Origin: Desulfoarculaceae bacterium
GTDB lineage: Bacteria > Desulfobacterota > Desulfobulbia > Desulfobulbales > Desulfocapsaceae
Direction: 5' to 3'
DNA length: 64,000 nucleotides
NCBI GenBank assembly: GCA_019429465.1
Contig: JAHYIV010000003.1
Location: forward strand, 62,001-126,000
Each line of letters starts with the position of its first letter. Positions within the stretch are counted from its first letter, which is position 1. Shown here in pieces: positions 5,518 to 64,000 of the stretch. The notes under the pieces are model-generated. The model was not told the DNA's origin. It saw only the letters and a program-made list of their open reading frames with translations, and made no database searches. The position numbers and the translations under genes were made by a program.

Positions 5518-8500
5518 CTACAGCGGCAGGATATGCATCTCTTCCCGAATGGGATGCATCCCCACGAGCAGCAGCCCTTTCCTGCCGTCGATGGAGACGG
5601 GATCACCAAAGCGGATCACCTGGCTGCCGATCTCGCAATACTCGCCGGCCTCGTAGACCTTCAGATGCTTGCAGCCGACGACACAGGTCTTCTCCAGGCG
5701 GACGGCCACCACTGAGGCGTGCGAGGTCTGACCGCCCCTGGCGGTCAGCAGCCCTTCCGCCATATCAATAACCTTGATATCCTCGGGCACCGTATCCTGA
5801 CGGATCAGGATCAGGGGCGTCTTTGGATCAGTGGCCCGCAGCTCCAGGATATTCTCCTCGGAAAAGACCGCGCGCCCGGACAGGGCGGATCCCGAGACCC
5901 CGATCCCCTTCCCCAGAAAAGCGTTCTCAAGCTCCGCTGTCTCGACAAAGACGTTGAAATGTTCCTTCTTCTTGATGGTGATCATATCGCGGGTCTGCAG
6001 GAGATAGAGATGTTCGGGCTCCGGTCCCTCAAAGGTAAACTCAATCTCCTGCGGATCCCAGCGTTTCTCATAGACCAGATCCCGGGAGATGGCGAGCAGA
6101 CGGTCATAGATCAGGGGGAAACGGAGCTCCAGACTCTCAGCCACAGAGCGGCCATCAAGCTCGGCCTGCTCCACCGAGATCGGCAGGCTGGTGACCAGAC
6201 CCGAAACGATATCCTCGCCCTGATCGCCATGGGCATAATCGCCCCACAGGGCCACCCGCTGCACCTTGCGATAGGGGTGCGAGGTGAACAGCACCCCTGA
6301 CCCGGCGCTGTCACTGCGATTGCCGAAGACCATGGCCTGGACGATCACCGCCGTTCCCCAGGCATCAGAGACATCCATAATCCTCCGGTAATCAGTGGCC
6401 TTGACCGTCTGCCAGGAATCAAGAACCATGGCCACCGCATTCACCAGCTGCAGCCAGGGATCTTCGGGTATCCCCAGACCTTTTCTGCGCACCAGCTGTT
6501 GATACTCAAGGGCCAGCTGCCGCATCTGTTCGGGCGTAAACTCCCGCTTCAGGTTCACCCCATGCCTGGCCTTGGCCCGGTTCATCAGATCCTGAAAATC
6601 CTCGCGCTGCATCCCGGAGGTCATGGCCCAGGACTGGAGAAAACGCCGGTAGTTGTCCCAGGACAGATACTCCTCACCATGGGCACGCACATACTCCTCG
6701 ATGATCTCCTCATTGAGCCCCACATTATGGATCGTGGCCATCATCCCCGGCATGGAGACCGCGGCCCCGCTGCGAATGGAGAGGAGCAGCGGGTGCTCGG
6801 AGGAGCCAAAGACCTTGCCGGTTTCCTGCTCAATCTCATCGAGGGCCGTGCGGATGCGCTGCATGAACTCGTCGCGGGCCTTGGCAAAACCATAGATCAC
6901 CTCGCGGCAGCGAAAGACCTCGGTGGTGATGATAAAGGCGGGCGGTACCGGCTTGTTATCTTCATGAAGGGTCACCAGATTAAAGCCCTTGTTGCCCAGA
7001 TGGATCAGGTCATGGGTATAGGGGGTCACCCGATGGAGCAGGGAGATGGACTTTTCCGGATTATAGGTCATGAGCAGATCAAGCATCCGCTGATCAAACA
7101 TGTTTTTCTGGATCTCCAGGGTGCCGATAATCCTGGAGATAAAATTATCGAGATGCTGCAGGCCGAAGGTGGACGAGATCAGATCCCGGAGAAAGGACTC
7201 CGACAGACGATGAACCGTATTCACCATATCCTGCTCATCCCACTGGGAACGATATTTAGTGAGCAGGTTCTTCTCACCGATCTGGGGGATGATGATGGAA
7301 AGGTTGTTCTGATGGATGTTGGTATAAAAAGAGTAGATAACATCCTTGACCCCTTCGGAAAGGCCCCGGAAGATATCAAGGTACTGGGTATAGGAAAAAC
7401 GCTTGATCCTGAGCGAACTGCGCAGCAGCAGCAGATAGGTATCAAGGCGCCGGGAGGAGATGCCGTCAACCCGCAGGGCCTGCATATAGAGCTTGAGACA
7501 CTTGGCAATGCGGTAAAAAGTAATCTCGGTGATAAAGGAGAGATTGACGGTCTCCGGCAATTTTTCCAGATAGATTGTGGCCAGATTCTCCAGACGGAAG
7601 GTCAGCCCCAGGCTGTCAAACTTCCGTTCCGCGTAGCGGCCATAAACCGAAGGAATATCAATGGCGATATGACGTTTGTAATAGATATCCTCCCGGGCCG
7701 CAAAATGTTCCCCGGAAAGAATGGTTTTCTTCAACCCCTCAAGGGTATTCAAAAGAGCGACCAGACACCCTTCCGTATCACAGGATTCCAGGTCGGCCAG
7801 CAGTTTCTCCATCTGGGGAAATCCTTCCTGGGCCGCCTGCTGCAACTCGGAACGAAGCTCCTGAAAACCAAGGTTATATTTCTGATGCAGCAGTTGATAC
7901 ATCTGCACCAGCAGATCAAAGCGCCGCCTTTCCGCCACCGGCAGATCGGTCTGCGCCTCCAGATACTGCTGTCTCTCCTCCCGCTTCCAGGAGAGAAGCT
8001 CTTTCATCGACTGGAAGTGAAGCTGCTCACCAATCCGCCGGGATAGAATATGCTGATCATCAATGAAGGGGCCGGCGCTTTCGACCTCCGCATAGACCTC
8101 TTCGGGCAGAAAGGGGAGCAGCACCTCTTTATCCCTGGTCTTCCAGAAGCGAAAGATGGCCTTGAGAAAGCCGACGATCAGGTTGGAGCTCTCGACATGA
8201 CTCTGCTTGCGCAGAAAATGAATCAGCACATCATGCCGTTTATGGATCTCGTCAAGCTCGGTGGAGACATCACGCAGCTGGCCTTCCGCCCCGATCTCAT
8301 TGAAAAAAACCGGCATCAGTTTGGTAAACTGTTTGGCCAGATTATAGACGGGTTCGATGGGATGATTGAGCAGCTTGGTGATATCCCGCTGAAAAAGGTC
8401 GGTGTCCTTGACACAGGTGCCGGTCAGTTTCAGATTGATGATCAGCGCCGAGAACAGGGTGGAGCACCATTTCGGCTCCTGCATGATCAGGTTGAGCCAG

Positions 8501-26566: not shown

Positions 26567-27057
26567 TGTTCAACTCCTTCGATGATTCTGTTTGATTTTT
26601 CTGGACACTCCGGACACTCTTCACGCCTACTGATCTCCATGAGCTAAGAGCCTATCTATAGCACACCCGGAGAAAAGCTGTCAAACAAGTTTTACCCCTT
26701 GACCTTACGACAACCATACACAAAGTATGTACTTGAGGATACTTTGATAAATTAACCCTGTGCCTGCGGTAACCCCCAACTACAAACAACATACAAGGAG
26801 CAGTAACGAAATGAGTTTGCAATGGTCTCGTTATTTCGTAACGGCTCCTAAATTTTAACTCACGCCTTGTTCTTGAACAAAAATTCTATTTTTTTGAGAT
26901 CCTTCATGGCTGTTTTACCTCAAACCCGGCAGCAATTTTTACTTGTCAGGCAAAATTCAAGAAGGTACACTGTCCTTACGATTCACTCATTAAAGTATAA
27001 AAAACTTGAATATTCAGCATATTCAGAAGCAAGAACAATCAACAATGGAGATCAACA
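26567..27057. other. Intergenic region between divergent hemL and trxA
   Basis: About 490 bp, AT-rich near trxA. It must hold the hemL and trxA promoters, but I cannot place clear -35/-10 boxes. It contains repeat B1 at 26795-26851. A frame at 26867 (72 codons) has no support. Confidence 0.5.
26795..26851. repeat. Hairpin element family B copy 1
   Basis: AAGGAGCAGTAACGAAATGAG..CTCGTTATTTCGTAACGGCT form the nested stem typical of family B, with a drifted inner loop. Short form without the 54-bp module. Confidence 0.65.
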
Positions 27058-56489: not shown

Positions 56490-56554
56490 CGTATTTCCCT
56501 CCTTATAATTAATTTATTCAAAAAAAATCCGTGCCAGACTCAATCCCGGAAGAT

Positions 56555-56860
56555 GCATAAGGTGCCGTAAATGAGAAGAGCAAGAGAAGCTTTGCTCTTC
56601 TCATAAGCGAATCCTGACGATATGGCCAGAGCCGCTCCACGAAACAGCCGGAAAAGATTGCTGTTTCCTGCTTGCGGCATAAGGTGCCGTAAATGAGAAG
56701 AGCAAGAGAAGCTTTGCTCTTCTCATAAGCGAATCCTGACGATATGGCCAGAGCCGCTCCACGAAACAGCCGGAAAAGATTGCTGTTTCTTGCTTGCGGC
56801 ATAAGGTGCCGTAAATGAGAAGAGCAAGAGAAGCTTTGCTCTTCTCATAACGGCACCTAA
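56555..56860. repeat. Hairpin array family E copy 3, three units, at the cydB 3' end
   Basis: Units with a 122-bp period start at 56555, 56677 and 56799 (GCATAAGGTGCCGTAAATGA). Inner stem ATGAGAAGAGCAAG/GCTCTTCTCAT, second hairpin GAAACAGC/GCTGTTTC; the last unit adds ACGGCACCTAA. On the minus strand the TTAG end is the cydB stop. It separates cydB from the CydX-like ORF. Confidence 0.8.
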
Positions 56861-57990
56861 TAAGCTTCATCATTCGCCACTTCATGGGCGGCCAGTTTCT
56901 GAGAATCCATCTGCCGCCACACATAGACCACATAGGCCAGGACAAAAGGAATCCCCAGGGCCACATAGGTCATGGCCGTAAGCGTATACCGGCTTGATGA
57001 GGCATTAAAGATCGTCAGACTGGACTGAAGATCAGCCACTGATGGGTAAAAAGGCGTACTATTAAATCCAGCCGTGAAAAAGAGGGCCAGACCAACTAGC
57101 ACGGTACCCGGTCCGGCCAGCCAGATCCCCCTGCTGCTCCCTTTGAAGGCGGTAGCAAGCACACCCAGGATCACCAGTACCAGACCCAGCAGCAGCAGGC
57201 CGAGAACCAGGGGCATGGCCAGCAGATTAAGAAGATACTTATTGGCCACCATGGAGACCACCCCGGCCTCATCGACACCGAATCCCTGCCTCAGCAGCAG
57301 TGACGCCAGCACATAGAGGAGGAAGGGCAGCGAGCAGAGGAAATTAACCCAGGCCGCCTTACGGATGCGGGCCTCAAAACCGTCCATGGCTGAGAAATCA
57401 ATATTATTGAGCAGATACATGGCGCCCAGCACCCGGGCATTGAAGACCAGAAAAAGCCCCAGAGACAGATTGAAAAGCGAGAAGGCGGCCTCCAGTCCAC
57501 GCAGGGGATGGGTCCAGCTTACCTGATTGTAGGCATTGAGGATAAAATTGGAACCGGTAAAAAAGGTGCCGACCGCGGCGCCGATCAGGAGCACGCCCAC
57601 GGTCCCATTAATGAGCAGAAAGGACTCATAGACCCTGGCACCCAGAAGGTTCCCTGGTTTTTTGCGGAATTCGAAACTGACGGCCTGGACGATAAAGGTG
57701 AAGAGGATCAGCATCCACACCCAGTAAGCCCCACCAAAACTGGTGGCATAGAATTTGGGAAAGGCGGCAAAGAGGGCGCCGCCAAAGAGAACCAGGGTGG
57801 TGAAGGTTATTTCCCATTTCCGTCCCAGTGAGTTCATCACCAGGGCGCTCTCCACATCATTTTTTGCCACCTGCCACAGCAGGGTATTGCCCCCCTGGAC
57901 AAAGGTAAGGAACAGAAACAAAGAGCCGACCAGGCTGCAGATGATCCACCATAGCTGCTGCAAGGTTCCGTAATCAAGGTTTGATATCAT
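56857..57990 (-). CDS. cydB: Cytochrome bd quinol oxidase subunit II
   Basis: A 377-residue partner of CydA in the O2-scavenging bd oxidase. Eight to nine membrane helices are visible, starting LQQLWWIICSLVGSLFLFL and ending GIPFVLAYVVYVWRQM. It pumps no protons but protects anaerobic enzymes by removing oxygen. ATG 57990 overlaps the cydA end region with GGAGGG upstream; the frame to 58011 is not needed. The TAG stop is supplied by the E3 array. Confidence 0.93.
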   Translation of the reverse strand: MISNLDYGTLQQLWWIICSLVGSLFLFLTFVQGGNTLLWQVAKNDVESALVMNSLGRKWEITFTTLVLFGGALFAAFPKFYATSFGGAYWVWMLILFTFIVQAVSFEFRKKPGNLLGARVYESFLLINGTVGVLLIGAAVGTFFTGSNFILNAYNQVSWTHPLRGLEAAFSLFNLSLGLFLVFNARVLGAMYLLNNIDFSAMDGFEARIRKAAWVNFLCSLPFLLYVLASLLLRQGFGVDEAGVVSMVANKYLLNLLAMPLVLGLLLLGLVLVILGVLATAFKGSSRGIWLAGPGTVLVGLALFFTAGFNSTPFYPSVADLQSSLTIFNASSSRYTLTAMTYVALGIPFVLAYVVYVWRQMDSQKLAAHEVANDEAY

Positions 57991-57991
57991 C

Positions 57992-59524
57992 TTAAATGCC
58001 CTCCGGTCCAATGGAAATCTGCTTCAGCATAATCTTTATCTCGGCGATCAGCAGCAGGGTAAAAAGCCCCAGAAACATGAAAAAAGTAGCCTGCACATTG
58101 CCCACAGCCAGATTCGTGGTCGCCACTTTTACCGGCAGCAGACCCTGAATGGCCCAGGGCTGACGGCCGACCTCGGCCACGACCCAGCCCGTCTGCTGGG
58201 CCACCAGACCGAGGAAATAGGAACTGACGCCAATAGGCAACAGCCATCTGACCTCTCCAATCCTTCCTTTGAGCGTATAGAAGAGATAGGCCAGAAAGAG
58301 GACCGGAAAGAAGCCCCCGAGGATCACCATGATATGGAAGGAATAGAAGACCGTGCTCACCGGCGGCACCGCCTCTTCCGGAGTGTTCAGATAGCCGTAG
58401 CCCAGGAATTCCTTATTGATATTGAATCTGGTAAGGGCGTCACTGGCTCCGTTTTCATTCTTCTCCAGCCGTGCCTGTTTAAAGTCGGCAAGATCAGCCA
58501 CCGCCAGCCGGCCCATCTTCATCTTGTCAACCACTCCCATCACGTTCTGCTCGCTGTTGCCATAGACCAGATCGTCAATACCCGGGACAAACGAACCCGA
58601 TTCGCGATTGGCCAGCAGGGAGAGAAGGCCAGGGAGCTTTACCTCAAAGAGAAAGGGAGCCTGAGAGTCCCCTGGCTTCTTGTCGCCATTCATGATCCCG
58701 GCGGCAACAAGACCGGCACCCTGTTCTCCCTTATACAGACCTTCAAAGGCTGCCAGTTTCATGGGCTGCTTCTGGGCGTTCTCAAAGGCCGCCTCATCAC
58801 CGGTGAAACCAACATAGACAGAGGCCAGCAGGCCAAAAACCGAGGCCACGACGATAGATCTTTTGGCCATCTCTACATGCCTGCCTTTCAACAGATACCA
58901 GGAGGAGATTGTCACCACAAAAAGGGAGGCCAGGAGGAAACCGGAACTGGTCGCATGGGTGAATTTGGACATGGCGATGGGGGAAAAAAGGACCGCCCAG
59001 AAGTTCTCCATCTCAAATCGGGCAGTCTCCGGGTTAAAGGCCATGCCCACCGGGTGCTGCATCCAGGCATTGGCGACCAGAATCCAGACGGCCGAAAGAC
59101 TCGAACCCACGGCCACCATCCAGGTGGAAAAGAGATGGAACCCCTTGGAGACCCGGTTCCAGCCAAAAAACATCACCGCAAAAAAGGTCGCCTCGAGGAA
59201 AAAGGCAAAGATCCCTTCAATGGCCAGCGGCGCCCCGAATATATCACCCACCATCCAGGAATAGTTGGACCAGTTGGTGCCGAATTGAAACTCGAGGATG
59301 ATACCAGTGGCCACCCCAATGGCAAAGTTGATGGCAAACAGGGTCATCCAGAACTTGGTCAGCGCCTTCCACTTCTCGTCACCGGTCCGGACATAAATAG
59401 ACTCAAACATGGCCAGCAAAAAAGACAGCCCCAGGGTCAGGGGTACAAAAATCCAGTGATACATGGCAGTCAAGGCAAATTGCGCCCTGGACCAGTTCAC
59501 CAGACTCAGATCTACATCAACCAT
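57992..59524 (-). CDS. cydA: Cytochrome bd quinol oxidase subunit I
   Basis: A 510-residue catalytic subunit. The haem ligand His is at about 23 (ALTAMYHWIFVPLTLG), the E99/E107-equivalent acid pair is in LAIEGIFAFFLEATFF, and GRQPW marks the quinol-binding loop end. The Q-loop is of the longer type judged by length. It reduces O2 to water with menaquinol. It follows DUF4492 and an Rrf2 regulator on the same strand, interrupted by MITE D3. Confidence 0.95.
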   Translation of the reverse strand: MVDVDLSLVNWSRAQFALTAMYHWIFVPLTLGLSFLLAMFESIYVRTGDEKWKALTKFWMTLFAINFAIGVATGIILEFQFGTNWSNYSWMVGDIFGAPLAIEGIFAFFLEATFFAVMFFGWNRVSKGFHLFSTWMVAVGSSLSAVWILVANAWMQHPVGMAFNPETARFEMENFWAVLFSPIAMSKFTHATSSGFLLASLFVVTISSWYLLKGRHVEMAKRSIVVASVFGLLASVYVGFTGDEAAFENAQKQPMKLAAFEGLYKGEQGAGLVAAGIMNGDKKPGDSQAPFLFEVKLPGLLSLLANRESGSFVPGIDDLVYGNSEQNVMGVVDKMKMGRLAVADLADFKQARLEKNENGASDALTRFNINKEFLGYGYLNTPEEAVPPVSTVFYSFHIMVILGGFFPVLFLAYLFYTLKGRIGEVRWLLPIGVSSYFLGLVAQQTGWVVAEVGRQPWAIQGLLPVKVATTNLAVGNVQATFFMFLGLFTLLLIAEIKIMLKQISIGPEGI

Positions 59525-59554
59525 TGCTCCTTCCTCCTTGTGTTAATAATTTTG

Positions 59555-59708
59555 GGAACTATCCAGCTTGATGCCGGAAAAATGCCAAAACACTTGTCAC
59601 GTAACTATTCAGCAGCGCCTCATATGCGAGAAAGAGGCCTGCGAAGTGTACTGGTTCGTACATAAACAGGCCGATGACGAAGCAGATGAGGTGCTGCTGG
59701 ATAGTTAC
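59555..59708. mobile_element. MITE family D copy 3, 154 bp, between DUF4492 and cydA
   Basis: Ends GGAACTATCCAGC and (complement) GTAACTATCCAGC. Perfect 8-bp target duplications TAATTTTG at 59547-59554 and 59709-59716. On the minus strand the target duplication plus the first base of the element form the TAG stop of the DUF4492 gene; the pre-insertion frame would have read one residue further (QNY). Confidence 0.9.
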
Positions 59709-59932
59709 TAATTTTGAACCGCCGGTCTGATAATCTGATCCAGGACATGATCGGCCCGTTGTGCATCGGTCTGAAAATTCGTCTTCAAAAAATTGGGGAA
59801 AAAAAATAATTTGAGGACCACAAACATGATAAAAAGTTTAATGAAAATAATCTTCCACAGGGTCCGGCCCACTGTCATGGACCTGAATCCGTCCCGATAA
59901 AAGGTATAAATAGTTGTGAACGGTTGCGACAT
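59708..59932 (-). CDS. DUF4492 small membrane protein of the cyd operon
   Basis: A 74-residue one-helix membrane protein. TIYTFYRDGFRSMTVGRTLW followed by KLFIMFVVLKLFFFPNFL is the DUF4492 pattern, typically found just upstream of cydA in Bacteroidota, epsilon-proteobacteria and relatives. The role is unknown, perhaps in oxidase assembly. ATG 59932 has GGAGGAGAAGG upstream, which beats the frame limit at 59971. Confidence 0.85.
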   Translation of the reverse strand: MSQPFTTIYTFYRDGFRSMTVGRTLWKIIFIKLFIMFVVLKLFFFPNFLKTNFQTDAQRADHVLDQIIRPAVQN

Positions 59933-59973
59933 AGCCCTTCTCCTCCAGCTGGGGTTTATCCGGAAAACCACCC

Positions 59974-60417
59974 TTAACTCTCTTTATTATGCATAGAAAA
60001 GACAGGAAGACAAGATTCATCCCTGCATAGTTCAGCAAAGGTGATGCCTCCAAGATGCTGCCGCAACCCGGCACTGGCATCTTCCCAGACCCTGTGCACC
60101 CGGCAATGAGTGCTGGCGGCACAGGCCTCGGGCCTGTCGACACAAGCATTAAGCCGAATCCTGCCGATCATCACCTCAACTACCTCCAGCAGGGTGATCC
60201 GGGCAGGATCCTTGATCAATACATACCCGCCCTTCGGCCCCTGCCGGATCTCGATCAGATGGGCCCGGCCAAGGGCCTGAACAATCTTGGCCAGAAAAGG
60301 ACCGGGAATACCCGCCTGCTCCACAATCTCCTGCTTGAGCACCAATACCCCCTGACCCTTGAAAGACAAATAGACCATACACCTGATGGCATAGTCGGCT
60401 GCGCGTGTTAATCTCAT
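59974..60417 (-). CDS. Rrf2-family transcriptional regulator
   Basis: A 147-residue winged-helix regulator. LTRAADYAIRCMVYLS starts the DNA-binding domain. Three cysteines in NACVDRPEACAASTHCRVH fit the C-x6-C-x5-C Fe-S cluster site of IscR/NsrR/RsrR. It heads the operon, so it probably senses O2, NO or redox state and controls cydAB (inference). The divergent intergenic (60418-60799) is the likely operator region. Confidence 0.85.
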   Translation of the reverse strand: MRLTRAADYAIRCMVYLSFKGQGVLVLKQEIVEQAGIPGPFLAKIVQALGRAHLIEIRQGPKGGYVLIKDPARITLLEVVEVMIGRIRLNACVDRPEACAASTHCRVHRVWEDASAGLRQHLGGITFAELCRDESCLPVFSMHNKES

Positions 60418-60549: not shown

Positions 60550-60745
60550 TAACCCCGATGAACGGGCTAAGTGCCCGAAGCGGCATAAGGAGCCGTAACG
60601 AAATAGATATAAATGGCCATGTTATTTCGTAACGGCTCCTAAGCCGCTGTAAAAAAATAACAAGGCCATCTAAGTGCCCGGAGCGGCATAAGGAGCCGTA
60701 ACGAAATAGATATAAATGGCCATGTTATTTCGTAACGGCTCCTAA
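60550..60745. repeat. Hairpin elements family B copies 4 and 5, short form, tandem
   Basis: Two copies in a row: CGGCATAAGGAGCCGTAACG.. to ..GTTATTTCGTAACGGCTCCTAA. They lack the 54-bp module present in B2, B3 and mfd and thus show the empty state. The left end is chimeric with a family A tail (TAACCCCGATGAACGGGC). Confidence 0.8.
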
Positions 60746-60799: not shown

Positions 60800-61870
60800 A
60801 TGAACCCGGCCCACCTTATTCCCACCCCGGACCTGCTACCAGTCCCCTGGGGTTGGTTTCAGCTCCTGCTGTCCACCACCTTTCTCCTGCACCTGCTGGT
60901 AATGAATATCATGCTCGGCTGGGCCATCATCGCCTTCTGCAACCATGCCTTCAAGGATTCCATACCGGAAGACAACCAGCTGATTTCCAGAAAGCTGCCC
61001 TTTACCATTGCCTTTGCCGTCAACTTCGGCGTTGCCCCCCTGCTCTTTCTCCAGGTTCTCTACGGCCACTTCATGTACACCAGCTCTGTGCTCATGGCCG
61101 TCTTCTGGCTCTCCATCGTAGGGCTACTCATTCTTGCCTATTATGCGACCTATATCTACAATCTGCAATTTTCGAGGCTGTCCGGTCTCCACACCCTGAT
61201 CAGCTCCATTATCGCCCTCTTCCTGCTGATAATCACCTTTTTCTTCACCAATAACATGAGCCTGATGATCCACCCTGAGAGCTGGGTCCGTTATTTTGAC
61301 CAGCCAGACGGGATGATGCTGAACTTGGGAGACCCCACCCTGCTGCCCCGCTATCTGCATTCCGTCCTGGCCTCAGTGGCGGTGGGTGGACTCGCCCTTG
61401 GCCTCTACCATGACTGGCGGAAGCGACGCGGCAGCGCTACAGCGGCAGCCAATATTCCCTCGGCCATGAACTGGTTTTCCTATGCCACCATCGCCAACTT
61501 CGGCATCGGCACCTGGTACTACGGCACCCTGCCGGCAGCCATTCGCACCGTGACAGGGGCATCAGGCGCCTTTCTCCTCGGCTTTCTCCTGCTAGGTATT
61601 ACCGCCGTCATCATGGCCCTGATCTATGGCCTGCAGCACCGCGTTCGGTATGCGGCCGGCGCCGTCCTCGGGGCCATCATCTGCATGGTAACGGTCCGGG
61701 AACTGGTGCGCAGACAGACCCTGGCCCCCTGGTTTTCCACCTCGGAACTGGAGGTCGTGCCGCAATATTCACCTCTTATCGCTTTCCTGCTGATCTTTGC
61801 AGCCGGCCTCTCTCTGATCTGGTGGATGATCAGGCTTGTCTTGCCGAATGACAAGGAGGTGCGGTCATGA
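60800..61870 (+). CDS. CydA-like multi-pass membrane protein
   Basis: A 356-residue membrane protein with about nine helices (PWGWFQLLLSTTFLLHLLVMN, LPFTIAFAVNFGVAPLLF, FMYTSSVLMAVFWLSIVGLL). The helices and His spacing recall CydA halves, and it is followed by a second CydA-like protein, so the pair may form a bd-like cytochrome (CydAA'-type, inference). It lacks GRQPW and a clear quinol loop. ATG 60800 follows GGAGG. The stop overlaps the next start (ATGA). Confidence 0.7.
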   Translation: MNPAHLIPTPDLLPVPWGWFQLLLSTTFLLHLLVMNIMLGWAIIAFCNHAFKDSIPEDNQLISRKLPFTIAFAVNFGVAPLLFLQVLYGHFMYTSSVLMAVFWLSIVGLLILAYYATYIYNLQFSRLSGLHTLISSIIALFLLIITFFFTNNMSLMIHPESWVRYFDQPDGMMLNLGDPTLLPRYLHSVLASVAVGGLALGLYHDWRKRRGSATAAANIPSAMNWFSYATIANFGIGTWYYGTLPAAIRTVTGASGAFLLGFLLLGITAVIMALIYGLQHRVRYAAGAVLGAIICMVTVRELVRRQTLAPWFSTSELEVVPQYSPLIAFLLIFAAGLSLIWWMIRLVLPNDKEVRS

Positions 61871-64000
61871 ACTATCCGATCTGGCAACTCGATGCCTTTG
61901 GCGGCGGCCTGCTCATTGCCATCATCGCCATTATCCACGTCTACATCTCCCACTTTGCCGTTGGTGGCGGACTCTTCCTGGTTCTGACCGAGATGAAGGG
62001 GCTGCGCGAAGGATCAGCCGAGATCCTGGCCTATACCAAAAGACACACCAAATTTTTCCTGCTGCTGACCATGGTCCTCGGCGGCATGACCGGCGTCGGC
62101 ATCTGGTTCACCATCGCCCTGATCAGTCCGGCCGCCACCTCCTCGCTGATCCATATCTTCGTCTTTGCCTGGGCCATAGAGTGGGTCTTTTTCCTGGCCG
62201 AGATCATCGCCCTGCTCTTCTACTACTACACCTTTGGCCGACTGAGTCCACGGAAACATCTGATCCTGGGCTGGATCTACTTTGGCTGCGCCTGGGCCTC
62301 CCTCTTTTTCATCAATGGGATCATTGACTTCATGCTCACCCCGGGGGAGTGGCTGAACAATAATAATTTCTGGTCAGGATTCTTCAACCCCACCTTCTGG
62401 CCGGCCCTCTTCTTCCGCACCTTCATGGCTGTGATGATTGCCGGACTTTTCGGCTTCCTGACCAGTGTCAATATCAAGGAGGCGACGCTCCGCCACAAGA
62501 TGGTCCGCTACTGCGGACTGTGGCTGCTGACCCCCGTGATCCTGCTGCTGGCTTCAGCCCTCTGGTACAAGGCTGCTCTGCCGCCGGCCCAACAGGAGAT
62601 GATCTTCACCAGGCTGCCGGGGATGCAACCCTTCCTCACCCTTTTCATCTGGCTCACGCCCCTGATCACCGCCGGCGGCCTGGCCATGGCCGTCCTGCGG
62701 CCGCAGGCCATACGCCGACCTCTGACCTGGCTGCTCCTGCTCCTGGGCTTTCTCTACCTGGGCAGTTTTGAGTTTATCCGCGAGAAAGGACGCAAGCCCT
62801 ATATCATCCACGATTATATGTACTCCACCTCTATCAGAACGACCGAGCTTGGCCAGATTCAGGAAACTGGCGTACTCGCCTCCGCCCGCTGGGTCAAAAA
62901 CAAAACCATTACCCCGGAAAACAGAATGGCAGCCGGCAGGGAGCTCTTCAACCTGCTCTGCCTGCCCTGCCACTCAGACGGTGGCCCCTTAAATGACATC
63001 CTGCCCCTGGCCAGACGTTTTTCTCCAGCAGGGATGCGCTCCTTTCTGGCCAGCATGGGCACGGCCAATCCCTACATGCCGCCCTTTGCCGGCAACGAGG
63101 AAGAACTGGGAGTGCTGGCCGACTACCTCACCACCCGCCTGGTGCCAGGTATCGCTGACAGCCCTGTGCACATCAGCAAAGAGATCATAGTGCCTCCGCC
63201 CTTTGACCGGGAGACAGCCGGATATCTCCTCCTGGCCAGCACAGACAGGGGCATGATCCTCTCTTCCGAACCGGAACAGTCGGGCATTGATTTTTCCTTT
63301 GGGCCGCCAACCCTGCGTGCCCAGGTGATCCAGCGGGGTGAGACCCCCGCTGTCCTGAGCGAAGATATCGAGGTGAGCTACCGGATTGACAACGACCACG
63401 GCCCTCTGCTCGGTAATATGGTGGCTACCGACAACACCTTTGAAGCGACCCTGTCAAAAATCCCGGCAGTCAGCCAAGACTTCCGCCCCTACCTGCTGGC
63501 CGAGATCGAGGCTGTCCAAGGGGGCAGAGTGATTGCCGCCACCCGTCTGAAAATAGGCATCTCAACCGAGATCGGCTGCCGCAACTGTCACGGTGGTCCC
63601 TGGGGCCAACAGGGCCGCACCGGACTGTCGCGCCAGACGGCGGCCAATATCCTGGCCGTTCATGATCAGCGCAGCAAGACCAGACTCGGTGACGACCTTG
63701 CCGCCGGCCGCATTGTGGTCTGCCGGGACTGTCACGCCGACCACAGCCGGGGAGCTGCTGGACAGGCTGACCGGCTGAACCTGTCGGCTGCCATGCATGG
63801 ATTTCATGCCGCCTATCTCTATAAAAATAGCAACAGCTGCACCTTCTGCCATGCCGGCAGCGACCATGGCACTACCGGCAGTCCCGAGGATCTGCACACC
63901 CGCCTTGGTCTTGCCTGCAGTGACTGCCATGGTTCTCTGGCTGACCATGCCATCAGCCTGCTCAAAGAAGAACAAGAGGCCAAAAAACCAGGGAGCAACA
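61867..64000 (+). CDS. CydA-like membrane domain fused to multihaem cytochrome c (partial)
   Basis: At least 711 residues, cut by the window end. Residues 1 to about 300 are CydA-like helices with His24 (AIIHVYISHFAVGG), a VFAWAIEWVFFLAEIIALL acid pair and GGMTGVGIWFT. A c-type haem domain follows: CLPCH (365-369) with a likely Met ligand in ANPYMPPFAG. Then CRNCH (571-575), CRDCH (619-623), CTFCH (658-662) and CSDCH (684-688) give at least five haems, probably periplasmic. It should pass electrons between the quinone pool or a bd-like centre and periplasmic cytochromes; the direction is unknown. Confidence 0.75.
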   Translation, partial: MNYPIWQLDAFGGGLLIAIIAIIHVYISHFAVGGGLFLVLTEMKGLREGSAEILAYTKRHTKFFLLLTMVLGGMTGVGIWFTIALISPAATSSLIHIFVFAWAIEWVFFLAEIIALLFYYYTFGRLSPRKHLILGWIYFGCAWASLFFINGIIDFMLTPGEWLNNNNFWSGFFNPTFWPALFFRTFMAVMIAGLFGFLTSVNIKEATLRHKMVRYCGLWLLTPVILLLASALWYKAALPPAQQEMIFTRLPGMQPFLTLFIWLTPLITAGGLAMAVLRPQAIRRPLTWLLLLLGFLYLGSFEFIREKGRKPYIIHDYMYSTSIRTTELGQIQETGVLASARWVKNKTITPENRMAAGRELFNLLCLPCHSDGGPLNDILPLARRFSPAGMRSFLASMGTANPYMPPFAGNEEELGVLADYLTTRLVPGIADSPVHISKEIIVPPPFDRETAGYLLLASTDRGMILSSEPEQSGIDFSFGPPTLRAQVIQRGETPAVLSEDIEVSYRIDNDHGPLLGNMVATDNTFEATLSKIPAVSQDFRPYLLAEIEAVQGGRVIAATRLKIGISTEIGCRNCHGGPWGQQGRTGLSRQTAANILAVHDQRSKTRLGDDLAAGRIVVCRDCHADHSRGAAGQADRLNLSAAMHGFHAAYLYKNSNSCTFCHAGSDHGTTGSPEDLHTRLGLACSDCHGSLADHAISLLKEEQEAKKPGSN

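Follow-up and report, generated by a model that had tools for sequence, protein, structure and literature searches.

A CydA-type protein with eight c-type haem motifs and a CydA-fold partner: a putative quinol-independent member of the cytochrome bd superfamily in Desulfobacterota

The window analysed here is a stretch of 64,000 nucleotides covering contig positions 62001-126000 of a 2.84-Mb draft genome whose close relatives are labelled as Desulfobulbaceae or Desulfocapsa MAGs. Two genes on the plus strand, here called U and T, run into its right-hand end and stand back to back with a cyd operon on the minus strand. The features of this region, in window coordinates, are as follows.

56857..59971, minus strand: genes for a DUF4492 protein, CydA (57992-59524) and CydB (56857-58011), a canonical quinol bd oxidase
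59974..60417, minus strand: Rrf2-family regulator, divergent from U-T, at the head of the canonical cyd operon
60800..61870, plus strand: gene U, a 356-aa CydA-fold paralogue (A'-type partner) with 9 TM helices, from model and profile alignment
61867..64000 in the window, stop at window-equivalent 64410, plus strand: gene T, an 847-aa CydA-type oxidase subunit with 8 c-type haem motifs, from the ORF and its extension past the window
61867..62835, plus strand: T membrane domain, residues 1-323, 8 TM helices, N-out/C-out, CydA fold, from the orthologue model, alignment and Lys/Arg counts
62911..63144, plus strand: T monohaem cytochrome c domain, residues 349-426, CLPCH at 365-369, distal Met404, from Pfam, model and conservation
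63223..63564, plus strand: T beta-sandwich (Ig-like) domain, residues 453-566, from the model, with generic beta-sandwich matches at Z about 6
63577..64000 in the window and continuing beyond it, plus strand: T multihaem tail, residues 571-840, 7 CXXCH, from motifs and conservation

Gene T starts with an ATG at 61867 and its frame is open up to the window end. An initial sequence-only reading had described a CydA-like membrane protein fused to at least five c-type haem sites in a non-textbook domain order, and had named extension beyond 64000 as a check. The extension was run and located the end of the gene at window-equivalent 64410 (full span 5867-8410 of locus L003). The five CXXCH motifs inside the window (residues 365, 571, 619, 658 and 684) were correctly called, and three more lie beyond it (740, 779 and 821), giving eight for the whole protein. 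The fusion itself was confirmed by Pfam, phmmer, the modelled fold and the CXXCH motifs, and the unusual order was upheld as CydA-type helices, monohaem domain, beta-sandwich and seven-haem tail. In two relatives T is split over two overlapping frames (L036 8774-11430 and L045 8974-10508); the split may be genuine, or it may reflect decay or a sequencing error.

Homology of the membrane domain to CydA, for which helix alignment had been set as the refuting check, withstood three comparisons. Pfam Cyt_bd_oxida_I (PF01654) matches T residues 17-195 (E 1.5e-10, above the curated cut-off), and phmmer matches T to 5doq chain A (E 1.3e-6). Since T is truncated at the window end, the structure used is an AlphaFold model of an 82%-identical orthologue and not of the window protein itself (pLDDT 84, pTM 0.79); the AF2 models of this orthologue and of U contain no haems. 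Residues 7-323 of the orthologue model match CydA/AppC chains with Z 30-32 and an rmsd of 2.5-3.0 Å over about 310 residues; the next-best fold scored Z 19. Direct hhalign profile comparison of T with canonical CydA was weak (probability 7, E 0.005). Judged by sequence and modelled fold, T is a member of the cytochrome bd superfamily, with the CydA fold and with H24 and E306 kept. Lys/Arg means over 50 T sequences were 12.4 inside vs 4.8 outside, and the N-out/C-out topology therefore places all eight c haems in the periplasm.

The stop codon of U overlaps the ATG of T by four bases (ATGA), and the two genes are probably translationally coupled. No Pfam family, CydB included, matched U. Its model (pLDDT 86) has a complete CydA fold (Z 26 to CydA/AppC over 331 residues; next fold Z 18), and its profile aligns with that of the T membrane domain in hhalign (E 1.8e-7, probability 94). 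U and T are thus two bd-superfamily paralogues, in agreement with the earlier claim that another CydA-like protein precedes T. U keeps H31 and H187, the equivalents of E. coli H19 and H186, and is without equivalents of E99, E107 and S140. A Q-loop is absent from U, the helix 6-7 loop being only about 10 residues long in the model. U may bind haem, though no complete ligand pair can be assigned.

On the minus strand, the normal Rrf2-cyd operon that had been reported to face T is indeed present, in the order Rrf2-DUF4492-CydA-CydB. The CydB of the window belongs to this operon, which has its own CydA, and not to the U-T enzyme; the Rrf2 regulator is possibly shared by U-T and the cyd operon. 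A scan of the divergent intergenic region for sigma-70-type promoters found none. Before the U-T operon lies a 53-nt palindrome, AGGAGCCGTAACGAAATA-N17-TATTTCGTAACGGCTCCT, at 60588-60640 and 60691-60743. The palindrome occurs at roughly 30 places in the genome, with related half-sites in the window at 26796-26849, 36661 and 39469, and looks like a dispersed REP/MITE-like element; the intergenic inverted repeats were rejected as operator sites because they are dispersed genome-wide. Just downstream of cydB (56518-56966) there are short repeated coding-like stretches, and the same peptide text appears twice in ORFs.

No universal further operon member was found beside T; only NnrU-like and DsrE-like neighbours recur in part. 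At 21 loci (Desulfogranum and relatives; e.g. L048 6703-7332) a 209-aa NnrU-like membrane protein is encoded on the same strand about 70 bases downstream of T. At the window's own locus the gene 38 bases beyond T (L003 8449-8919, window-equivalent 64449-64919) encodes a DsrE-like protein that seems to have a signal peptide, and other members of this genus likewise have a DsrE-like gene beside T. The clustered T neighbours include no recurrent multihaem cytochrome gene.

Scanning of named genomes returned at least 561 related loci. The best 80 of these are nearly all from Desulfobacterota, with Desulfogranum marinum, D. mediterraneum, D. japonicum and Desulfonema magnum as cultured carriers, and in most of the 80 U stands directly before an eight-haem T. 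Among 395 genomes of the phylum, with six weak T matches (E above 1e-18) excluded from the count, 70 carried T and U, 1 carried T alone, 3 carried U alone and 321 carried neither; the Fisher p value for this co-occurrence is tiny and ignores kinship. Where T had no adjacent U, U was present elsewhere in the genome (4/4; Desulfonema magnum and three others). Co-occurrence even where the genes are unlinked is good sequence evidence that U and T work together. Our confidence in the anatomy, the homology and the U/T pairing is high.

Frames long enough for the eight-haem form were present in about 18 of the 71 T genomes. Most of the others encode monohaem CydA-c proteins, about 450 aa long and with an A' partner of their own, and some carry two haems; such monohaem forms with U-type pairing are widespread. 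In one-haem relatives, no stand-alone gene for the tail was found in the vicinity of T. A maximum-likelihood tree was built from the membrane domain; some of its branches are long, and it was rooted for display only. In this tree T lies apart from canonical CydA and in the same clade as the widespread monohaem CydA-c proteins. The tree separates canonical CydA (100/100), a 620-aa haem-c-free type, a cable-bacteria type (100/100) and a grade of monohaem CydA-c proteins, and one clade (96/93) unites the eight-haem forms with forms carrying one, two or three haems. Since monohaem members nest among eight-haem ones, the haem tail has probably been lost again in some lineages.

Several divergent arrangements were seen among the related loci. 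Loci L040, L046, L047, L208 and L210 have 3 CXXCH within about 590 aa, and U is downstream of T rather than upstream. Loci L192, L193 and L195, from other families of the phylum, carry the 620-aa haem-c-free bd-like gene, with Tyr at E99 and Ser at E445, and a 504-544-aa ORF with two CXXCH about 2 kb downstream, which resembles OR-N-type operons. Locus L197 (524-3343 and 1993-4065, minus strand) holds a divergent bd-like pair of 939 and 690 aa (longest frames), with one CXXCH each and long tree branches.

The monohaem domain of T is matched by the Pfam CBB3-type cytochrome c family on residues 353-421, below its cut-off, and its model resembles the haem c domain of 1bl9 (Z 7.2, 76 residues). 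The Met ligand ascribed to it earlier is supported, Met404 being invariant in 45/45 full-length T homologues. The His of all eight motifs is likewise invariant in these 45, which excludes chance as the source of the motifs. Pfam multihaem families match residues 674-828, with weak DmsE and OmcA/MtrC-type matches. Against the PDB, the tail matched nothing beyond NrfB and cytochrome c3, both weakly and through the haem motifs, and a PHROGs scan of the tail gave no match. Exactly seven further tail His (599, 644, 647, 677, 787, 834 and 835) are invariant in the 45 full-length homologues. These can serve as candidate distal ligands of the seven tail haems, any assignment of a particular His to a particular haem being putative. 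One His/Met haem followed by seven bis-His haems would fit the usual make-up of an electron wire.

T-clade and monohaem CydA-c sequences were aligned jointly with E. coli CydA (from NC_000913.3). In the E. coli protein we take H19 and E445 to be ligands of the active-site haems, E107/S140 to be the proton path, H186 and M393 to be the ligands of low-spin haem b558, and K252/E257 to bind quinol. The equivalents of H19, E99, E107, S140, E445 and R448 in the window T are H24, E105, E112, S145, E306 and R309. Five of these positions (H19, E99, E107, E445 and R448) are kept in every aligned sequence, and S140 is kept in all but one, a monohaem form with Thr. No aligned sequence has an equivalent of H186 or E257, and the M393 and K252 columns are not conserved among them; an invariant Arg184 of T adjoins the H186 column. 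T is likely the catalytic subunit, because it keeps the O2-site and proton-path set and U is without equivalents of E99, E107 and S140.

In known enzymes the Q-loop lies between helices 6 and 7, haem b558 has His/Met ligation, and a Lys/Glu pair of the Q-loop has a role with quinol (PMC8951039). The helix 6-7 loop of T has only about 13 residues in the orthologue model, and T is for this reason without a Q-loop. None of the features of a canonical qOR (b558 ligands H186/M393, a Q-loop with Lys and Glu, an adjacent CydB) was found for T. The sequence-only reading had suggested that the module connects quinol to periplasmic cytochromes or O2. The O2 half of this suggestion gains from the retained active-site and proton-path residues. 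The quinol half did not stand, as T has neither the b558 ligands nor the Lys/Glu quinol residues and both U and T are without a Q-loop. With these elements gone, electrons most likely enter from periplasmic cytochromes.

Two readings that retain quinol were weighed against these observations. In one, U-T would oxidise menaquinol and export the electrons along the octahaem arm. Export cytochromes typically have multihaem tails, the weak DmsE and OmcA/MtrC-type matches point the same way, and U keeps the H186 equivalent. Yet the missing Q-loop, K252/E257 and b558 ligands of T and the missing Q-loop of U speak against such export, for which the conserved E99/E107/E445/R448 equivalents would moreover be superfluous, and the clustered neighbours supply no recurring multihaem cytochrome gene; we regard it as improbable. 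In the other, U-T would still oxidise quinol, but at an atypical site located in U or close to haem b595, and the c haems would act as a side entry or store. Mycobacterial bd does have an alternative menaquinone site near b595 (PMC8951039), but the known quinol residues are in neither subunit of U-T and the c haem domain is fixed in every clade member, one-haem ones included, which makes this reading very improbable to us.

It is hardly credible that T is a paralogue that has decayed or lost catalysis and is retained for a role in assembly or sensing. Some relatives have secondarily lost the haem tail and one or two copies are broken, which would agree with decay, but the active-site and haem residues are strictly conserved over deep divergence.

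We consider it fairly probable, from the conserved residues and the modelled folds, that U-T is a quinol-independent periplasmic-cytochrome:O2 oxidoreductase of the bd superfamily. Its donor, acceptor, haem types, direction, electrogenicity and physiological role are what we infer in the following scheme. The seven bis-His haems of the tail would receive electrons from multihaem partners or from c-type cytochromes of the periplasm, c3-like or otherwise. Electrons would then pass from the tail to the Met/His monohaem domain, which comes immediately after the last membrane helix, at that helix's periplasmic end, and from there to the b595/d-type haem pair of T, the site at which O2 would be reduced to water. 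Protons would be drawn from the cytoplasm through the retained E107/S140-type path, and turnover would be electrogenic without pumping. U would replace CydB as a structural and possibly haem-binding partner. The enzyme could serve in O2 scavenging or in microaerobic respiration, drawing on periplasmic cytochromes that carry electrons from H2, formate or sulfur, and it would act alongside the facing quinol-fed CydAB. The host genome gave no match to a haem-copper oxidase. It encodes c3-like cytochromes, and these could be donors to U-T.

The same di-haem site might instead reduce NO, peroxide or another small oxidant with electrons from periplasmic cytochromes, as a detoxifying enzyme. The U-T family is uncharacterised, and the operon is transcribed away from the gene of an Rrf2 regulator; NO and Fe-S sensors are among the members of this regulator class. 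Peroxidase activity is described for E. coli bd in PMC4899803. Against this, the whole CydA set of O2-site and proton-path residues is kept and no other substrate site is recognisable, and we hold a reductase of this kind to be unlikely.

Strict anaerobes of the Desulfobacterota consume O2, and both the periplasmic share of this consumption and the enzyme are unsettled. As an oxidoreductase between periplasmic cytochromes and O2, U-T is a concrete, conserved candidate for periplasmic O2 reduction in culturable relatives. It predicts a bd oxidase that is fed by cytochrome c and not by quinol; the open-licence literature searched yielded no report of a purified cytochrome c-fed bd oxidase. More broadly, and only tentatively, we suggest that this bd branch in sulfate- and sulfur-metabolising bacteria could be a periplasmic-cytochrome:O2 oxidoreductase with an octahaem wire that conserves energy without quinones, with protons from the cytoplasm and electrons from the periplasm, and with an arm that may be fed by outer cytochromes or neighbouring cells.

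Compared with E. coli CydAB, T shares the fold and the equivalents of H19, E99, E107, S140, E445 and R448. U-T differs from it in having no b558 ligands, Q-loop, K252/E257 or CydB, and in having eight covalent c haems instead.

A second comparison is with cable bacteria, which belong to the same order as the host and whose O2-reducing enzyme is still debated (PMC13047784). One candidate O2 reductase named there is CydAh, a homologue of CydA that also has a cytochrome c domain in the periplasm. Genes for the globin-pentahaem fusion named in the same paper were found in two genera of the window's order, and we took these genera as cable bacteria for that reason. Their sole T-like membrane protein is monohaem in most genomes. 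T resembles CydAh in joining a CydA domain to a periplasmic cytochrome c domain and in the proposed reduction of O2. CydAh differs in forming a separate clade (100/100), in being only about 26-31% identical to T and in carrying one haem. It has Leu at E107 and Ala at S140, substitutions seen in CydAh only, and it keeps H186; a U partner is absent in 4/4 genomes. We therefore rejected the equation of the cable-bacteria CydA with the U-T enzyme. If E107/S140 carry cytoplasmic protons, U-T would conserve energy and CydAh would not, because U-T keeps the proton path and CydAh has lost both residues.

Candidatus Manganitrophus has the non-canonical bd-like oxidases TO_1-TO_4, proposed in an excerpt of PMC9040806 to be fed by cytochromes or from the periplasm. 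These have other extra subunits than U-T, and the excerpt describes no octahaem fusion. A description of an octahaem CydA fusion was likewise not found in the open-licence literature searched. Within that literature the octahaem extension is new relative to the known non-quinol bd families; the families of Murali et al. 2021 may include multihaem members.

The closest counterparts lie in the non-quinol families OR-C and OR-N of the bd superfamily, which Murali, Gennis and Hemp reportedly set out in 2021 (ISME J 15:3534) with a proposed cytochrome c donor. Members of OR-C lack a quinol site and have a C-terminal cytochrome c domain with CXXCH, both of which hold for T, and T may belong to subfamily OR-C1. 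CydAA' pairing, and bd families that do not use quinol and for which a cytochrome c donor is proposed, were already known, as shown by citations of Murali et al. 2021 in PMC10839748 and PMC12342949; PMC10839748 describes the CydAA' of OR-N as putatively cytochrome c-oxidising. Two superfamily paralogues that are co-encoded and co-inherited, as in CydAA'-like systems, were also found in U-T, which in sequence resembles the OR-C/CydAA' kind. Like OR-C and OR-N, U-T combines a CydA core that has the two active-site haem ligands and no quinol site with a pair of CydA-type paralogues; unlike them, it has a seven-haem tail and a beta-sandwich fused behind the monohaem domain of T.
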